Positions 23,222-31,931 of a DNA stretch of 33,288 nt are shown piece by piece. Numbering within the stretch: the first letter of the stretch is position 1; each line of letters starts with the position of its first letter. A program made the position numbers and the translations under genes. Below the pieces are notes generated by a model. That model had not been told where the DNA came from, ran no database searches, and saw only the letters and a list, made by a program, of their open reading frames with translations. The DNA lies in contig QOAX01000295.1 of the NCBI GenBank assembly GCA_003972865.1, forward strand, positions 1 through 33,288. Direction: 5' to 3'. This stretch comes from Verrucomicrobiota bacterium (GTDB lineage: Bacteria > Verrucomicrobiota > Verrucomicrobiia > Limisphaerales > UBA1096).

Positions 23222-23296
23222 GGGTTGGTAGCTCAATGGTAGAGCAGCGGCCTTTTAAGCCGTTGGCTGTGGGTTCGAGTCCCACCCGACCCACCA
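23222..23296 (+). tRNA. tRNA-Lys (anticodon TTT), encoded CCA
   Basis: Folded by eye: GGGTTGG/CCGACCC acceptor, GCTC/GAGC D stem, CTTTTAA anticodon loop, GTGGG-TTCGAGT-CCCAC T arm, ACCA end. Confidence 0.95.
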
Positions 23297-23311
23297 TTAA
23301 AAACCTTCGGT

Positions 23312-23326
23312 GTTTAAAAGTTAAAC
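23312..23326. promoter_or_regulatory. Short perfect dyad between tRNA-Lys and integrase
   Basis: GTTTAA-AAG-TTAAAC. Confidence 0.35.
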
Positions 23327-23365
23327 GAGGGTTCCGGCCCTTCTTAAGCCGCCAAAGCCATCTGT

Positions 23366-23385
23366 TTCATTGACAGTTCATTGAC
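23366..23385 (+). repeat. Short tandem direct repeat upstream of integrase
   Basis: TTCATTGAC-AG-TTCATTGAC. Confidence 0.6.
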
Positions 23386-23417
23386 GTTTAGAAACTCAAA
23401 AACTGGAACTGAATACG

Positions 23418-24530
23418 ATGCGCCCCTCTAAAATCCGGGTAGCAAAATACGAGCACTCAGCAACTTCGAAGTGGGTTGTTGAAGGCCTCAAGAGCAGCAA
23501 GGGCAAACGTTCTCGGAAGTTCTTCCGCTCAAGGGCTGAAGCAGATGACTTCGCGCGAGATGCCCTTGAAGAGCAGCGCCAGTATGGCCACAAAGCCCAG
23601 CACCTGCCCCACGAGTTAAGGCTCTCTGCAATCCAATGTGCCGAGAAGTTAAGCGTCTACGATAAATCGCTTGAGGAGGCAACTGAGGCACTTTTAGAGC
23701 GCCTCCGAGTATCCCAACGCTCCTGCAGCTTAAACAAGCTTGTGTCGGAGTATCTGAGGAGCAAGCAGGACAAAGGCCTCAGCAGACGCCATCTTCAAGA
23801 TCTTAAGAACAGGCTAGGGAAATTCGCCAGTTTCGCAGGCGAGAAGACGGCGTCTGAGATCAAACCCGAGCAGATCGAGCAGTGGCTCCAGCAATTCGGA
23901 GGTGAGAACCACAACAACTACCTTCAAAGACTCCACGGACTCTTCAACTACGGGATCAAGCGTGGGTATCTTGCGGAGAACCCCACAAAGGCCATTGATA
24001 AAGTGAAGGTAGCCGAGACGGAGCCAGCTATCTTCGCCCCAGAAGAAATCAAAGCGCTCCTTAACGCAATCCCTAGCAGGGCAGTTCCCTACTTCTCCAT
24101 AGGCGCTTTCGCGGGACTGCGCCCCAGAGAAATCGAGCGGCTAGACTGGGCGGAGATTCACCTGGAGGAAGGCTACATCCGAGTGCGCCCCAAAGTTGCG
24201 AAGACTGCGAGCAACCGCCTCGTAGACATCCAACCCAACCTTCGAGCATGGCTAAATCCGCTGACCCGAGAAAATGGCCCTGTGACGCCACCCAACCTCC
24301 GTAAAATCAGAGAGGCCTCCCAGCGCAAGATCGGCTTAACCCGATGGCCTCAAGACGGACTCCGCCATAGCTACGCAAGCTATCACCTCGCCCATTTCAA
24401 AAACATAAATGACCTAGCAACACAAATGGGGCACACAGACACAAAACTCATCTTCAGACACTACAGAAGCGTTGTTACAAAAGATGAAGCGTACAAATTC
24501 TGGAAGATAGAGCCAGCGGAGCTAGCGTAG
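23418..24530 (+). CDS. Tyrosine recombinase/integrase
   Basis: Catalytic-domain motifs GLRPREIERLDW, LRHSYASYHLA, MGHTDTKLIFRHYRS; tRNA-adjacent. Confidence 0.93.
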   Translation: MRPSKIRVAKYEHSATSKWVVEGLKSSKGKRSRKFFRSRAEADDFARDALEEQRQYGHKAQHLPHELRLSAIQCAEKLSVYDKSLEEATEALLERLRVSQRSCSLNKLVSEYLRSKQDKGLSRRHLQDLKNRLGKFASFAGEKTASEIKPEQIEQWLQQFGGENHNNYLQRLHGLFNYGIKRGYLAENPTKAIDKVKVAETEPAIFAPEEIKALLNAIPSRAVPYFSIGAFAGLRPREIERLDWAEIHLEEGYIRVRPKVAKTASNRLVDIQPNLRAWLNPLTRENGPVTPPNLRKIREASQRKIGLTRWPQDGLRHSYASYHLAHFKNINDLATQMGHTDTKLIFRHYRSVVTKDEAYKFWKIEPAELA

Positions 24531-24592
24531 GGAGGTAATTTCATAACGTAGGGACAAAGAGTCCTATTTTAAAGTTTTTTTATTTTTTTGTA

Positions 24593-24640
24593 TTGACAGG
24601 GCTCTAAGGGCTGGCAATATAGGCTGGGGCGTAACGCCCC
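24593..24640 (+). promoter_or_regulatory. Candidate sigma70-like promoter and leader hairpin for the helicase gene
   Basis: TTGACA at 24593; AATATA/TATAGG-type -10 around 24616-24623; hairpin TGGGGCG-TAA-CGCCCCA; GGGCTCTAAGGGCT repeat between. Confidence 0.4.
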
Positions 24641-24664
24641 AAGACACTTAAGCCCTAAATAAAA

Positions 24665-26215
24665 ATGAACAATAACAAAGACGGTGAGCCGCAGAGGCAA
24701 AGTAAACAAGACACCCATCCAGTAGTTTGGTTAAACGAAAAATATCCAAAGGTGAGGGAGAAATATGGATTACCCCTGGACATCGCCATAGAGGGAAACA
24801 ACATAAAGATAAAAGCAATCAGCGATGAATTCTTTGCGGCTTGTCTAGCCGAGCTTGGTCAACCGAAGGCTCCTGTTGTTTTCACTCAAGGAGCGTTCTA
24901 CCGTTACAGTGCAGAGACAGGGATATTTGAACCCATCAAGGGCAGAAAAGTTGAGACAATGCTTGGTGAGATAATGAGAGGCTGCGCTGATGCTTGCGAT
25001 AACGGTGGAATGAATGATGTTAGTCCATTGATATTCAGGTTCGCCAAGAAGAGCGTACTCTCCTCCATTCGGCAACGCGCTGCCGCCCTTGCAGAGCAGC
25101 CAGATGATTACTTCGAGGAAACTCCGAACTTCATTATTTTTGAAAACGGTGTCCTCGAACTTGAAACCGAGAAAGTCGTCGATTTCAGTCCGAAGTACAG
25201 GAGCCGAAATAGAATACCATTCCCATTTGACCCCAAATCGAAATGCGATCTTTTCCTCAATAAGCTATTAGGCGAAGCGCTGGATGAGGATCAGATCGAG
25301 TTGCTTCAAAAGGTCTGCGGCTTGGTGCTTCTTGGGGTTAATAAAGCTGAAAAAGTTTTGTTGATTCTGGGTACAGCTGGTGGCGGCAAAAGTAAAATGC
25401 TTGAAGTAATCAGCACTTTAATTGGCGACGACAATATCAGAGAGCTTAGGACGCAGCATCTGCAAAAACAGTTTGAGATAGCAGCCTATCGAGGTAAAAC
25501 GTTCCTTATCGGGTCAGATGTAAAACCTGATTTCTTGATGAGAGATGGGGCATCAACGATCAAGGCGTTGACGGGCGGTGATATGCTAACCGGCGAGGTT
25601 AAGAACGGAGGTCACATTAATATTAGGGGGATATTTAATGTCGCGATCTCAAGCAACTCGATCCTAACGGTTCATATGGAACAAGATGCGAAAGCCTGGG
25701 AACGGCGTCTTTTAGTACTGAAATATGCAAAGCCGAAAACAAACAATCCAGACCCAGACTTGGCTCGGAAGATTCTAGAGAATGAGGCCGCCGGTGTTCT
25801 GTGTTGGATGTATGAAGGATACAAGAAACTACGCGATGATAATTTTAAGTTTACTCTAAACGAAAGACTTACCCGGGACAGAGATGACATCCTCCTTGCC
25901 TCCTCCGCGCCAGAGTTGTTTGTGCGGGATTGTCTTATGGAGAAAAGTGAAGGTTCAGCATCAATGACGAAAGAAGTGGTTAGAAAGTTGTACCATGAAT
26001 ACTGCAAAGAGCGGGGTTGGCCGAAGGGGAATGCGAGGAGCTTTCCTGGGAGGATTGAGGCGGAAATTGAGAACCTCTTTGGGATTTCAGTCTCCAACAA
26101 TGTCCACCCTGAGTTAGGGACGGGGGATCAAAGGGGTTGGCATGGGATTAGGATCAAGGGTGCGGACGCCAAGGACCCCTTTTTTTCAGTCCTTAGTAAA
26201 TATTCGACTCAATAA
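24665..26215 (+). CDS. D5/P4-type primase-helicase (superfamily 3 helicase)
   Basis: D5_N-like segment NFIIFENGVLELETEKVVDFSPKYRSRNRIPFPFDP; Walker A LGTAGGGKSKML; AISSNSILTVHMEQDAKAWERRLLVLKY. Confidence 0.85.
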   Translation: MNNNKDGEPQRQSKQDTHPVVWLNEKYPKVREKYGLPLDIAIEGNNIKIKAISDEFFAACLAELGQPKAPVVFTQGAFYRYSAETGIFEPIKGRKVETMLGEIMRGCADACDNGGMNDVSPLIFRFAKKSVLSSIRQRAAALAEQPDDYFEETPNFIIFENGVLELETEKVVDFSPKYRSRNRIPFPFDPKSKCDLFLNKLLGEALDEDQIELLQKVCGLVLLGVNKAEKVLLILGTAGGGKSKMLEVISTLIGDDNIRELRTQHLQKQFEIAAYRGKTFLIGSDVKPDFLMRDGASTIKALTGGDMLTGEVKNGGHINIRGIFNVAISSNSILTVHMEQDAKAWERRLLVLKYAKPKTNNPDPDLARKILENEAAGVLCWMYEGYKKLRDDNFKFTLNERLTRDRDDILLASSAPELFVRDCLMEKSEGSASMTKEVVRKLYHEYCKERGWPKGNARSFPGRIEAEIENLFGISVSNNVHPELGTGDQRGWHGIRIKGADAKDPFFSVLSKYSTQ

Positions 26216-26219
26216 AAAC

Positions 26220-26594
26220 ATGACAAGTAGTAATAAGGGGTCCGTAAGGTCCGCAGACAAATCCGATAATCCGTTACCGAGAGTTAATGAATTATCGCCA
26301 TACACAAAAGCAGAGTTCGAGATCCTCAAGCTAGCCGTTCAAGGGCACTCCCTTAAGGCCACAGCGGCCCTCCTAGGGCTTTCCGAGGATCAAGTGGCCC
26401 TTGAGACCCACGAGGATTGGTATGCCGCCAGCATCGACCCCACAGACCTTTGCCATAGGGCTATTCGAGTCCTCATGGAGTTGACTGCCTCTGAGAAATC
26501 AAAGATGGCAGCCGCCGATTCACGCAAATGCTTAAGAAAGTTTTGGGGTAAAGCATCCAAGCAATTCAATGACACCCAGATGGACATACACTGA
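26220..26594 (+). CDS. Small HTH-like protein of unknown function
   Basis: YTKAEFEILKLAVQGHSLKATAALLGLSEDQV resembles an HTH; ORF ends in translational overlap with the next ORF. Confidence 0.5.
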   Translation: MTSSNKGSVRSADKSDNPLPRVNELSPYTKAEFEILKLAVQGHSLKATAALLGLSEDQVALETHEDWYAASIDPTDLCHRAIRVLMELTASEKSKMAAADSRKCLRKFWGKASKQFNDTQMDIH

Positions 26595-27012
26595 GGCCAA
26601 CGCCTCCCGCTGGCGGCCCCTCTTCGACGACCTCATTGGCGGCACTCCCGCCCTTGAGGTGCCCCTCGAGGGCAACGGCAAGAGCCTCTGCTCCCTTCAC
26701 ATCCGCATCTCTGACGCCCTCAAGTGGCTTGCCGACCAGTTCAAGGCAGGCAACCCCTCCATGGAGCCTTACGCCCGCCTCAAGCGCCAGCTGCGCTACT
26801 CCACGCACGGCGCCGCCCTGCGCCTGCACCTGAAGCGGGCCCACGCCTACCGCCCCGTCCCGCACCTTGACCCAGCGCTCTGCGCCCGACTACAATCAGC
26901 CCTGCAACGACCCGATCTAAAGCCCACCACACGGGCCAAAATCGAGGCAGTCCTTAACCCAAGAAAACCCCACATACTTCCAACCGCCGAGCATGGATCA
27001 CCAGAGCAATAG
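26569..27012 (+). CDS. Basic protein of unknown function
   Basis: 147-aa ORF overlapping the previous ORF; no family recognised. Confidence 0.45.
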   Translation: MTPRWTYTEANASRWRPLFDDLIGGTPALEVPLEGNGKSLCSLHIRISDALKWLADQFKAGNPSMEPYARLKRQLRYSTHGAALRLHLKRAHAYRPVPHLDPALCARLQSALQRPDLKPTTRAKIEAVLNPRKPHILPTAEHGSPEQ

Positions 27013-27868
27013 CAGTCGTTACGGGGCAAAGCCCCTACTGCTTTGCTTGGGGTTGCTCATGTCCATTACCGGGTTTGGACAGGAGAAGAAGCCGGCGCTC
27101 ACGTTCTTCGGATGGTCGGATCAACACACCAATACTAGCGGTGACACCTCGCGGCTTCATCCCTTCGTGGACGCCATGAACACTATGGCAGGCACCGCCT
27201 GGCCCAAGACGGTTGGTGACAAAGTGGCAAAGCCCAGCTTTGTCATTGGCGCGGGCGATATTACTGAATGGCCCACGCACGCAGCCATGAAAGGCTACGA
27301 CTCGCTCCTGAATAACCGCCTGCAATTCCCCGCCTACGATGTCCTCGGAAATCACGATGACGGTGGCCGCGCCTTTTCCCCGACCATGATCAACTGGCTT
27401 AAGAAAAAGCACGGCAGCTTAAGCTACACCTTTGAAAAAGGCGGCGTGGTCTTCATCGGCCTTTGGTCTAAGTTTGATCCCAAGGGCAAGCCCGCCCAGC
27501 CCCTGACGCAAGAAGCCCTGACATATCTTAAGGAACAACTCGCCAAGTTGTCGAAGGAGAAACCGGTGGTGATCTTCACTCATCTCTGCCATGACGCCAT
27601 GACCAACAGGGACGAACTAGTCAACACCATCGGCAAATCCAACGTCATCATGATCTTGGGCGGCCATTACCATTACTCTAGCGTGAACCAATATCGTGGG
27701 ATCAACTTTGTGCAGCTACCCTCACCCAAATCGAAAGTCACCGAGTTCACGGTCATCCGGATCACAAAAGACAGGCTCATAGCCATTCCTTATGACTTCA
27801 CCAAGAAAGCGTGGGTGTCCGAATCCAAAAAAGTGCTCGATACAAAAATCAAGGTGGTGGAGCAATGA
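26993..27868 (+). CDS. Secreted calcineurin-like metallophosphoesterase
   Basis: Signal peptide; VIGAGDITEWPT, LGNHDDGG, VIFTHLCHD, LGGHYHYSS: metallophosphoesterase metal motifs. Confidence 0.85.
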   Translation: MDHQSNSSRYGAKPLLLCLGLLMSITGFGQEKKPALTFFGWSDQHTNTSGDTSRLHPFVDAMNTMAGTAWPKTVGDKVAKPSFVIGAGDITEWPTHAAMKGYDSLLNNRLQFPAYDVLGNHDDGGRAFSPTMINWLKKKHGSLSYTFEKGGVVFIGLWSKFDPKGKPAQPLTQEALTYLKEQLAKLSKEKPVVIFTHLCHDAMTNRDELVNTIGKSNVIMILGGHYHYSSVNQYRGINFVQLPSPKSKVTEFTVIRITKDRLIAIPYDFTKKAWVSESKKVLDTKIKVVEQ

Positions 27869-27912
27869 AACACCTCCTACTCACAACAATCGCAGCCGTG
27901 CTGTGCCTTTAA
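27865..27912 (+). pseudogene. Orphan secretion leader remnant MKHLLLTTIAAVLCL*
   Basis: ATG overlaps the MPE stop; 29/30 nt identical to the start of the DUF1592-type gene at 29481; stops immediately after the hydrophobic leader. Confidence 0.65.
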
Positions 27913-27974
27913 AATTACTCCATTGACGCAGAGGGATTTTGGACTACTTTTTCAGCACTAAGTTATATCGAGAA

Positions 27975-29390
27975 ATGAAAACACTCGTAACAACCATGCT
28001 GCTCGGCTCGGCTGTCTGCTTTCAAGCGGCCGATTGGCCCAACTGGCGCGGCCCGGACCACAATGGCATCTCCCAGGAAACGGACTGGTCCGAGAAATGG
28101 GGCTCGAGCGGCCCCAAGCGACTTTGGAATGCCTCGGTCGGCACTGGCGTTGCCACCGTCTCGGTGGCCGACGGACGGGTGTTCACCATGGGCAACAAAT
28201 CCAACCGCGACTCGGTTTACGCCCTGGAGGAAGCGACTGGTGATATCCTGTGGCGACATTCCTATTCTGAAGCATTAAGCCCCAAACAATACGATGGTGG
28301 ACCCAGTGCAACTCCTACCGCCGACGGCGAATACGTTTACACCCTTAGCAAAACTGGGAAGGCGTTTTGTCTTGAGGCGTCCACTGGAGACGAGGTGTGG
28401 AACAGGGATTTAAAACAACTCTACAGTCTTCCGACGCCTACCTGGGGTTTTGCCTCCTCAGCGTTGATCCATGGAGACAAGGTTGTTTACAATGTTGGCT
28501 CACGCGGGATTGCACTTAGTAAGACAAACGGCAGCCTCAAGTGGAAGACCGCCAGTGGCACACCAGGCTATGCAACCCCCGTTCGCTACGACCATCGCGG
28601 CACCGAGGCTTTCATCATGTTCGGCCCCAGCTACGCCTATGGCGTGAATGCCGCCACGGGCAAGCAGCTCTGGTCCAAGTCCTTTAAATCGAGCGACATC
28701 AATGCCGCAGACCCAGTTTTGTACGATGGCAAGATCTTCCTCACCTCCAGCTCCCGTGACGGCGAGTTGATCGAGCTGAGTGGCACCAGCACAAGTTCCA
28801 AATGGAAGAACCGCAACATGCGTATCTACTTAAACGCCGGGGTGGTGATCGGCGATTATTTGTACGGTGCCGATGGCACTACCAATCGCGGCAACACGGT
28901 CCGCTGCATCAACATGGAAACCGGCGAAACCGAGTGGACAAAAAACAGCATTCCTTGCGCTTCTATCACCGCTGCTGATGCCAAACTGATCATACTCAGC
29001 CTCACCGGTGACCTTTACATCGCCGAGGCGTCGCCGAGCCGTTTTATGCAACTGGCCAAGGCCAAGGTCATCACCGGCACCTGCTTGACCGTGCCGGTCC
29101 TGGCCAACCGAAGCCTCTACGTCCGCAACTCTCGCGGCACGCTCTACAAGCTGCAAATGAGCGAGATGGTGGTCGAGCCGCAGCCGTTGGCGGTTAATTT
29201 TGCCGGCAGCTACCTCGAGTTCTCCTGGCCGGCCAAAGGCAACTTCATCCTCGAGTCTGCCGATGCGCTTGGCCAAGCAGCCGACTGGAGCGAGGTCGGC
29301 GGAAGACCGCCCACCACGGAGGATGACCGTTACGTTGTCCGCGTCAGGCCAAGCGCTGGACAGCAATTTTTCCGTCTCCGCAGCGAATGA
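27975..29390 (+). CDS. Secreted PQQ-like beta-propeller protein
   Basis: MKTLVTTMLLGSAVCFQAADWPNWRGPDHNGISQETDW...; quinoprotein blades; C-terminal beta-rich tail. Confidence 0.87.
   Translation: MKTLVTTMLLGSAVCFQAADWPNWRGPDHNGISQETDWSEKWGSSGPKRLWNASVGTGVATVSVADGRVFTMGNKSNRDSVYALEEATGDILWRHSYSEALSPKQYDGGPSATPTADGEYVYTLSKTGKAFCLEASTGDEVWNRDLKQLYSLPTPTWGFASSALIHGDKVVYNVGSRGIALSKTNGSLKWKTASGTPGYATPVRYDHRGTEAFIMFGPSYAYGVNAATGKQLWSKSFKSSDINAADPVLYDGKIFLTSSSRDGELIELSGTSTSSKWKNRNMRIYLNAGVVIGDYLYGADGTTNRGNTVRCINMETGETEWTKNSIPCASITAADAKLIILSLTGDLYIAEASPSRFMQLAKAKVITGTCLTVPVLANRSLYVRNSRGTLYKLQMSEMVVEPQPLAVNFAGSYLEFSWPAKGNFILESADALGQAADWSEVGGRPPTTEDDRYVVRVRPSAGQQFFRLRSE
29266..29278. repeat. Iterated palindrome CGCTTGGCCAAGC
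   Basis: Exact core in the 3' part of the PQQ gene. Confidence 0.8.
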
Positions 29391-29424
29391 GATGGCACCA
29401 TATAGGCAACTTCACGTTGATTGA

Positions 29425-29484
29425 GACCTCCTCCGCAAACACGGCGGCAAGACGGGTGCAGAATTGAAAGCTGAAGGGAAATGA
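29425..29484 (+). pseudogene. 3' remnant of a probable ankyrin-repeat family gene (DLLRKHGGKTGAELKAEGK*)
   Basis: 19 codons plus TGA in one frame, TGA overlapping the next ATG; an in-frame stop precedes it so it is not an intact ORF. Confidence 0.55.
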
Positions 29485-31931
29485 AACACCTCCTACTCAC
29501 AGCAATCGCAATGGTTGTCGCGCTTCTGTGGCCTTGCGTGAGCTATGGCGAAAAACAAGAGGCTTCCGACAAACAATTCCGGGAACAGATTGCGCCTCTG
29601 TTGGAAAAGCGTTGCGCAGGCTGTCACGGAGCCAAGAAACCAAAAGGCAACCTGAGGGTGGATCAGCTGGATCTGGATTTCATTCACGGGAGGGACACTG
29701 AGACTTGGCACGACATTCTGGACGCCTTGAATCGGGGAGAAATGCCGCCTGAGGACGAGCCTCAGCTCAGCGACGCGCAACGGCAGACGCTGGTGAATTG
29801 GATTACGATCCGAATGACTCATGCCGCCCATGTGAAGCGGGCCACCGGCGGACAGGGCGTCCTTCGTCGGTTGACCCGATATGAATACAACAACACGATG
29901 GCGGACCTGCTGGGAATCCCCTTGGACTACTCCAAAGACCTCCCCCCCGAACCGAACAGCGAGGATGGCTTCATGAACAATGCCATGGCCATGGGCATGT
30001 CCGGCATGCAATTGGAGTATTATCTGCGAGCCGCCCAATTGGGCTTGAGCAAGGCTCTGGTGGAAGGTCCGGAACCCAAACGTTTTGAACACACGGGAAC
30101 GGTCAATGTGGGGCGCAGAAAAGGACGCGCCCCCAAAACGCCGCACACGAGCAACATCCAACCCGGCAATTGCTTCATGACCCGAGTAATGGACTACCCC
30201 GTTTCCGGACCGGTCCGCGTCCGGGTGAAGGCCCACGCCGTCATCCCCGAAGGCAAAGGTCCGCCGCGCATGCGGGTGATGATTGGGGTCCGGGCGGACA
30301 CCTATGTTCCCGGCGGACAGGTCGGCCCGGAGGTGGATGTCACCGCCAGCGCAGATGAGCCAGGAACCTATGAATTCACGGGATGGCTGGAGCATTTCCC
30401 GATGTTGAAATCTCCCTCCAATTTCCCCGGACTGCTGGTCAATGTTCACAATGTGTATGATGACGGCTCCAACGCCATCGAACTGCTGGACAAGAAGATT
30501 GGCGAACAGGAAAAGAAACTCAACCAACCCGACCTCAATCAACCTTGGCTGGTGGTGGAGTCGGTGGAATTCGTCGCTCCCGACCACCAGGTTTGGCCGC
30601 CTCAACGCCATCGGAACATCTTGTTTCAGGGAGCCGATATTCCCGACGATGAAACCGCTTACGCACGACAAGTCCTCAAGCGTTTCATGCGACGCGCGTA
30701 TCGTCGTCCGCCCACCCCCGATGAGGTTGAGTACGTCCTGCGGTTTCACAACAAGATCCGCCCGGACTACCCGAACTTCATCGAGGCCATACGCCAAAGC
30801 CTGGCCATGACGCTGATCTCCCCTCAGTTTCTGTATCTGGTTGAGCCCAAACGAGCGGGCAAGGCGGCCCGACGCCTGACCGATCACGAAGTGGCCGCGC
30901 GCCTCTCCTATTTCCTTTGGAGCACAATGCCCGACGAGAAACTGAGTCAACTGGCGGACAGTGGCTCCCTGAGAAAAGGCAAGACTCTTTCAGCCCAGGT
31001 TCGACGGATGCTCGCTGACCCGAAGGCGCAACGTTTCGTCGACCAATTCACGGATCAGTGGCTGGACCTCTCTTCACTGGACCGGGTCGCGGTCAACCCC
31101 CAGTTCTACCCGGAATTCAAGGACCGTGTAAAAACCGCCATGCACCAGGAAACGCTGCATTTCTTTTCGGAAATCCTGCGCAACAAACTATCGGCGCTAA
31201 ATTTCCTGGATTCCGATTTCACGATACTCAACGAGCGTTTGGCAAAGCACTACGGCATCGAGGGGGTCACCGGAACGGAAATGAGGAGGGCGGCCCTGAA
31301 ACCGGCCTACAAACGGGGGGGACTCATCACTCAGGGCAGCATGCTGATCGGCAATTCAACGGGTGAGGATTCCCACCCCATCAACCGCGCGGTATGGATC
31401 CTGAAACGTCTGCTGGACGAACCGCCGTCCCCGCCGCCCGCCAACGTGCCGGCCTTGGATTCCGAAACGCCGGGCTTCGACAAGCTCACCCTGAAGGGGC
31501 AATTGGCGGTCCATAGAGAGAAGGCCGCCTGTGTCAGTTGCCATCGCAAGATCGATCCCTGGGGCATTCCCCTGGAACACTACGACGCGGCCGGCCTGTA
31601 TCGGACGGAGGCGCTCCGATTGACCGCAAACCAGAAGGGCCAGACACGTAACAAGGTCGGCAAAGCCCCTTTGGACGCGGGCGATGTCATGCCGGATGGA
31701 ACGGCCATCCAGGGAGCCGATGAATTGAAGGATTACCTCTTGCGGGAGAAAAAGGATGCCTTCGCGCGGGCACTCGTCGTGAAGTTGACAACCTATGCAT
31801 TGGGGCGTTACCTTGAATTTACCGACGATAAAATCGTCGATGACTTGACCGCCCGATTCCAAGAACAGGGATATCGGCTGGATAAACTGATCCAATCTAT
31901 CGTTGCATCCGAACTGTTCCTTACCCGCTGA
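29481..31931 (+). CDS. Planctomycete-type cytochrome C / DUF1587-1592-1588-1585 protein
   Basis: LLEKRCAGCHGAKKPKGNLRVD; LRRLTRYEYNNTMADLLG; FMRRAYRRPPTPDEV; RLSYFLWSTMPDE; CVSCHRKIDPWGIPLEHYDAAGLYR. Confidence 0.92.
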   Translation: MKHLLLTAIAMVVALLWPCVSYGEKQEASDKQFREQIAPLLEKRCAGCHGAKKPKGNLRVDQLDLDFIHGRDTETWHDILDALNRGEMPPEDEPQLSDAQRQTLVNWITIRMTHAAHVKRATGGQGVLRRLTRYEYNNTMADLLGIPLDYSKDLPPEPNSEDGFMNNAMAMGMSGMQLEYYLRAAQLGLSKALVEGPEPKRFEHTGTVNVGRRKGRAPKTPHTSNIQPGNCFMTRVMDYPVSGPVRVRVKAHAVIPEGKGPPRMRVMIGVRADTYVPGGQVGPEVDVTASADEPGTYEFTGWLEHFPMLKSPSNFPGLLVNVHNVYDDGSNAIELLDKKIGEQEKKLNQPDLNQPWLVVESVEFVAPDHQVWPPQRHRNILFQGADIPDDETAYARQVLKRFMRRAYRRPPTPDEVEYVLRFHNKIRPDYPNFIEAIRQSLAMTLISPQFLYLVEPKRAGKAARRLTDHEVAARLSYFLWSTMPDEKLSQLADSGSLRKGKTLSAQVRRMLADPKAQRFVDQFTDQWLDLSSLDRVAVNPQFYPEFKDRVKTAMHQETLHFFSEILRNKLSALNFLDSDFTILNERLAKHYGIEGVTGTEMRRAALKPAYKRGGLITQGSMLIGNSTGEDSHPINRAVWILKRLLDEPPSPPPANVPALDSETPGFDKLTLKGQLAVHREKAACVSCHRKIDPWGIPLEHYDAAGLYRTEALRLTANQKGQTRNKVGKAPLDAGDVMPDGTAIQGADELKDYLLREKKDAFARALVVKLTTYALGRYLEFTDDKIVDDLTARFQEQGYRLDKLIQSIVASELFLTR

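Follow-up and report, generated by a model that had tools for sequence, protein, structure and literature searches.

Reused ends of an ankyrin lipoprotein gene family, and their probable terminal reassortment around a PQQ gene and its neighbours, in a genus of marine Verrucomicrobiota

Introduction

Integron cassette arrays consist of tandem one-gene units of varied function with a repeated sequence between them. Polymorphic secreted-protein families have a conserved N-terminus and swapped C-termini, that is, a conserved export end on an exchangeable body, and ankyrin-repeat genes form tandem families. The closest described process we found is the terminal reassortment of type III effectors (Stavrinides et al., 2006, cited in PMC6460904), in which unrelated coding sequences reportedly acquire the same conserved 5′ end, which carries a secretion signal, so that the resulting chimeric families have nothing but their ends in common.

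Here we describe a leader (L) and a tail (T) found in a window (the whole 33,288-nucleotide stretch of DNA that was analysed) and followed through related genomes. As with the type III effectors, the L/T families are chimeric and linked by ends alone, one terminal secretion signal (predicted) being placed on several unrelated protein families. Unlike there, the signal is a Sec/lipoprotein leader, the bacteria are free-living and marine, a conserved 3′ end is reused too, most of the cargo consists of hydrolytic enzymes, and a donor can be identified, namely a tandem ankyrin family. Unlike integrons, the system has no integrase over the cut-off, no attC-like folding, a repeat that is coding on both sides, and variable edges; unlike polymorphic secreted families, it swaps whole unrelated enzymes and has both termini in common. 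Tandem ankyrin-repeat genes (with matches to Ank_2 and related Pfam models) are the donor family itself, but in contrast to ordinary families of this kind their ends have spread to non-ankyrin genes. The leader sequence was in no paper found by our literature search.

Results

A leader, a tail and a PQQ gene in the window

The features considered here are listed below.

26569–27012, + strand: orf26569, whose end, with the MDHQSN leader, makes a second reused junction.
26993–27095, + strand: a different leader (MDHQSNSSRYGAKPLL...EKKPA), which heads other bodies in genomes G009 and G019.
27090–27854, + strand: metallophosphoesterase (MPE) body, 93% identical to G017:C72, where the leader and the 3′ end differ.
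27865–27903, + strand: L, a 39-bp leader copy (MKHLLLTTIAAVL), out of frame with the PQQ gene; 100% identical copies lie elsewhere in the genome.
27906–27974, + strand: DNA native to the upstream side of the PQQ gene (CCATTGACGCAG..., promoter-like), with homology to relatives starting at about 27906–27920.
27975–29390, + strand: PQQ_2/BamB-like beta-propeller gene, a copied member of a locus found in 22/22 genus members.
29392–29424, + strand: prepilin remnant, the first ~11 codons, frame-shifted and cut at ...TTGATTGAG.
29425–29484, + strand: T, a 60-bp tail copy with blast copies in the genome.
29481–29510, + strand: second L copy, the in-frame start of the next gene.
29481–31931, + strand: PSCyt1/PSD2-5 (DUF1585/1587/1588/1592/1595) cytochrome gene, with its first ~10 residues from L.

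The sequence reads as an earlier, preliminary description had it: the ATG at 27865 overlaps the MPE stop and opens a frame that translates as MKHLLLTTIAAVLCL before a stop, and 29425–29484 translates as DLLRKHGGKTGAELKAEGK, its TGA overlapping the ATG at 29481. Since the latter ATG opens the second L (96.7% over 30 bp), 29425–29510 is a single 86-bp T-ATGA-L junction; directly before the tail lies the truncated prepilin gene, not ankyrin sequence. Blast searches of the window's own genome, a 2.77-Mb metagenome-assembled genome (MAG) of 319 contigs for which counts are based on the stretches examined, gave 40 matches for L (E 1e-9 to 3e-14) and 42 for T (E down to 1e-36), which greatly exceeds chance. 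Many of these are a continuous junction in which the tail stop overlaps the next leader start (...GAAGGGAAATGAAACACC...), and an IUPAC pattern of the T-ATGA-L core found 23 matches in this genome, with none for the reversed control. We counted 159 L and 213 T copies in 1.7 Mb of same-genus DNA, which was chosen for T/L and is thus biased towards contigs bearing them. Differences among the T copies are synonymous-biased (0.60 versus 0.22 expected), as in coding DNA, and the T pool therefore descends from coding sequence.

The ankyrin family as source, and its restriction to one genus

The same 1.7 Mb contains 34 ORFs that span L to T in a single frame (median length 229 aa), ten of them in the window's own genome. 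Since nearly all are ankyrin proteins (L018:10549-11382, for instance, matches Ank_2 with E=2.6e-41), the preliminary description was right in placing both of these ends on an ankyrin family, and the intact genes that it proposed to look for are present. That L and T are the conserved ends of a high-copy ankyrin lipoprotein family, with genes arranged head to tail as T-ATGA-L or T-spacer-L, is supported.

T copies that end in GN and a stop are followed by a spacer repeat of ~105 bp (CTAAACCAACCCGCTCCACCACTTGAACGC...TTGAAAACTGCGCTCAACGG), which elsewhere precedes L (L018:12143-12238, L017:4422-4523 and ~30 further places); it is probably the intergenic spacer of ankyrin arrays. An ankyrin gene with another tail (RQRGGKLGSELAKPEGG...FYRVRVLD), L164:1-954 on contig G000:C304, lies ~1.6 kb from a PQQ gene that has an intact prepilin neighbour.

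The L/T pair is peculiar to a single genus of marine Verrucomicrobiota. Matches occur in 21 of the 22 genus genomes, own genome counted; one weak match only (E 4e-7) was found among the other families searched, and the T-ATGA-L core was absent from 141 sampled out-of-genus genomes of the order. Judged by their public titles, the genomes bearing the core are mostly marine Verrucomicrobiota/Pedosphaera MAGs, and all genomes compared are MAGs.

Origin of the PQQ block

The PQQ gene is a genus-wide locus and not foreign cargo. All 22 genus genomes carry an orthologue; in the relatives with a readable 3′ side a prepilin gene comes next, and none of the relatives has the window's MPE or PSD neighbours beside it. 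The window copy has its native upstream DNA and ~11 prepilin codons, and then switches to T. Two further copies lie in the same genome: C304 carries a PQQ gene with intact prepilin, and C308 a diverged PQQ copy (84% identical DNA) in which prepilin and T meet at the same joint and no L comes after T. Since this second, diverged copy has the same junction, the PQQ/prepilin/T joint is not a misassembly; it is old and real, and the PQQ block is copied from a resident locus type. A short tree (369 bp) places the C308 body among C304 and close relatives, and the window copy outside them. Considering that the tree places the two copies apart and that the prepilin/T joint is nevertheless common to both, the PQQ copies have recombined.

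The preliminary description also read 27865–29484 as a gutted ankyrin gene, the body of which had been replaced by the PQQ gene. The arrangement fits this, in that L and T agree with the ends of intact genes in order, strand and family and another L follows; the replacement by PQQ is, however, unproven, as no ankyrin residue is left between L and T, and the block brings along its own upstream DNA and a piece of its native downstream gene. Moreover, the T junction stands without the window arrangement, since in the C308 copy no L comes after it. An ankyrin body could have been replaced, or L and T could have been joined separately to the two sides of the PQQ block, and we regard direct replacement as possible but doubtful. 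Random gutting of one gene was rejected as a full account of the PQQ gene, given its own upstream DNA and native prepilin start.

Neighbouring genes

The MPE gene is chimeric at both ends, a feature missed in the preliminary description, and its leader joint falls on AGCCGG. The window leader at 26899–27095, which takes in the end of orf26569, stands at the head of a cytochrome-type ORF in G009 and ahead of another ORF in G019. Most top homologues of the PSD-type protein align from residue 11–12 onward, as expected if its first residues come from L. We think it probable that three consecutive neighbours in the window (MPE, the PQQ block and the PSD-type cytochrome gene) have had their ends rebuilt by reassortment.

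The orf26569 end with the MDHQSNSSRYGA leader stands before different bodies at 26569–27095 in the window, on G009:C11 and on G019:C107, and in G015 an orf26569 homologue (L090:6377-6685) is followed 14 bp later by L. Further upstream in the window, 23222–26215 holds a tRNA-Lys, a tyrosine integrase and a D5_N/DUF5906 primase-like gene, that is, an integrated satellite-like element; the window contains no attR (tRNA end copy), and none of the other 21 genus genomes has the primase. Since T/L are genus-wide and the primase is in no other genus member, with no attR in the window, the element was rejected as a general carrier of T/L.

Ends joined to non-ankyrin bodies

Among copies with enough context, no ankyrin lies alongside 81 of 210 T and 78 of 153 L. 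Behind the 78 non-ankyrin L copies, 34 reading frames stay open for at least 90 codons in the L frame, versus 14/156 in the other two frames (7 ORFs per other frame), a 7.8-fold odds in favour of in-frame reuse (p=2e-9). At least 10 Pfam families are found behind L. The bodies include four sulfatases, GDPD, DUF4838, two 3-keto-disaccharide hydrolases and a pectate-lyase-like protein, together with a calcineurin-like phosphoesterase, a beta-lactamase fold, alpha/beta hydrolases, a thioredoxin-like protein, and an enolase-like protein whose native TAT start is located behind L. Other loci with different cargo between the same ends, as anticipated in the preliminary description, are exemplified by a sulfatase ending in KTGEELKAEGK (L275:16625-18040), and three more non-ankyrin ORFs have both ends in frame (L269:8789-9232, L274:1824-2447 and L021:3617-4771). 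As judged from the sequence, 18 of the 34 in-frame fusions have a lipobox-consistent Cys at residue 14–22 and are candidates for export.

At the other end, 32 of the 125 T copies without L run straight into an ATG ORF of at least 80 aa, versus 7.8% at random, and these joins lie mostly at offset 0, on ATGAAA. Genes with L/T ends are strung together as arrays in G008:C159, G019:C107, G006:C3 and G011:C311, in which T-ATGA-L and gene alternate on the same strand with varied cargo; G006:C3 and G017:C1 have their outer flanks in common and differ in contents. Prepilin genes (FTLIELLVVIAIIAIL) begin right at a T end at L018:3593, L018:9278, L017:5938, L260:13838 and L031:12350, and are a recurrent cargo type at T ends.

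If ankyrin arrays simply decayed by random deletion and insertion, L and T would be non-functional fossils beside incoming genes. Many copies are indeed short or out of frame (44 of the 78 non-ankyrin L copies have no long in-frame ORF), and decayed ankyrin copies are common. The strong in-frame bias behind L, the precise fusion of T to foreign start codons and the conservation of whole cassettes across species nevertheless make it unlikely that the ends are relics only.

Exchange between species

The proposal that the conserved ends act as flanks for cargo swapping agrees with what is seen across the genus, where the same ends stand on many bodies and where whole cassettes, as well as leaders, exchange at the ends, at the ATGA junction. 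In particular, G008 and G011 share a 448-bp block (90% identical) that is exactly one L-to-T cassette, with differing neighbours. One sulfatase body has different leaders in G011 and G000, the switch falling within ATCGCAGCCGTG; a pectate-lyase-like gene block begins at the ATG in G015 and G019; and the MKAGIAIS gene, which meets T at AAATGAAA in G011, is preceded by unrelated DNA in G006. Capture events with a native donor are few.

Of 303 alignment ends, 19 fall within 60 bp of T/L, versus 4.7 expected from random positions, and synteny breaks occur at 17/142 T/L sites versus 26/467 other gene starts on the same contigs, a modest excess (p=0.014). T and L copies are one pool with no clustering by species: similarity among T copies is 0.859 between species versus 0.862 within a genome (a difference reached in 166/500 permutations), and among L copies 0.859 versus 0.875 (58/500). 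By comparison, the PQQ locus is only about 60–91% identical between genus members. The likeness of copies across species could also be due to purifying selection on an old family.

A true cassette-exchange system with the gene termini themselves as exchange sites, in which a putative recombinase or annealing protein would recognize T-ATGA-L as a coding adaptor that captures bodies at start codons and circulates L-gene-T units among species, seems rather unlikely. Quite improbable, in our judgement, is a dedicated cassette system, in which a recombinase would recognize T-ATGA-L and L-gene-T units would be excised and inserted like integron cassettes. Cassette blocks do end at ATGA in some cross-species pairs, the tandem same-strand arrays carry varied cargo, and every genome has several tyrosine recombinases. 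However, no gene scored above the integron-integrase (TIGR02249) cut-off in the 22 genomes, no recombinase gene was noted in the two array flanks read (G006:C3 and G017:C1), and the T-L sequence lacks attC-like folding (z-scores 0.1 as DNA and -0.03 as RNA; spacer repeat -0.26). Further, the edges of T and L are scattered over some 40 bp, from about -57 to -18 in T and from about +25 to +57 in L, and do not fall on one point, and the synonymous bias of T is coding-like. A 284-aa ORF in one relative (G002:C370:34-807, L196) has two strong partial matches to the integron-integrase model (114 + 84 bits, below cut-off) and is possibly a true integron integrase.

Misjoining of short repeats in fragmented MAGs is very improbable and largely refuted: the assembly does have 319 contigs, some contigs break off within T or L, and 11 anchors are no more than 150 bp from a contig end, but joining inside a shared k-mer cannot yield junctions with a truncated T or L, two contigs that are 16% different in sequence both carry the PQQ/prepilin/T junction, and the same patterns recur in G015 (no ankyrin at 15/37 L and 17/57 T), putatively of the Fram Strait PacBio HiFi set (PMC10504371).

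Discussion

We suggest that the observed copy number, shared ends, in-frame reuse, start-codon joints, interspecies exchange and mosaic copies probably reflect terminal reassortment, in which new bodies would be captured through microhomology and the shared ends would then serve for homologous exchange. The ends of ankyrin lipoprotein genes would act as adaptors. New bodies may be joined to L or T by illegitimate joins with 0–8 bp of microhomology (as read from few junctions), often at AAATGAAA around the start codon or inside signal-peptide codons. In-frame joins behind L would be retained by selection, since L would give a start codon and an export signal, and T may give a stop that couples translation to the next start. 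Cassettes would then move and duplicate between arrays and species by homologous recombination at the shared 40–100 bp ends; synteny breaks and mosaic copies are present, and a RecA-type enzyme presumably carries out the exchange. Starts, bodies and ends of genes appear to be combined in varying ways in this genome, with no recombinase visible. The Ku protein (NHEJ) was found in none of the 22 genus genomes, and carriage of T-L by phage was rejected on finding no exact match to the core in 2.9 million viral contigs.

Clustering by termini and short-read assembly will mislead in this genus. Finally, both the donors and the products are visible in related genomes, where new secreted proteins can arise from ready-made ends fitted to other bodies. 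Several capture joints can be read at base level, including the case of one locus that a single genome carries both as a native and as a captured copy, and they bear on the way in which integron cassettes or secreted chimeras come by their ends in the first place.
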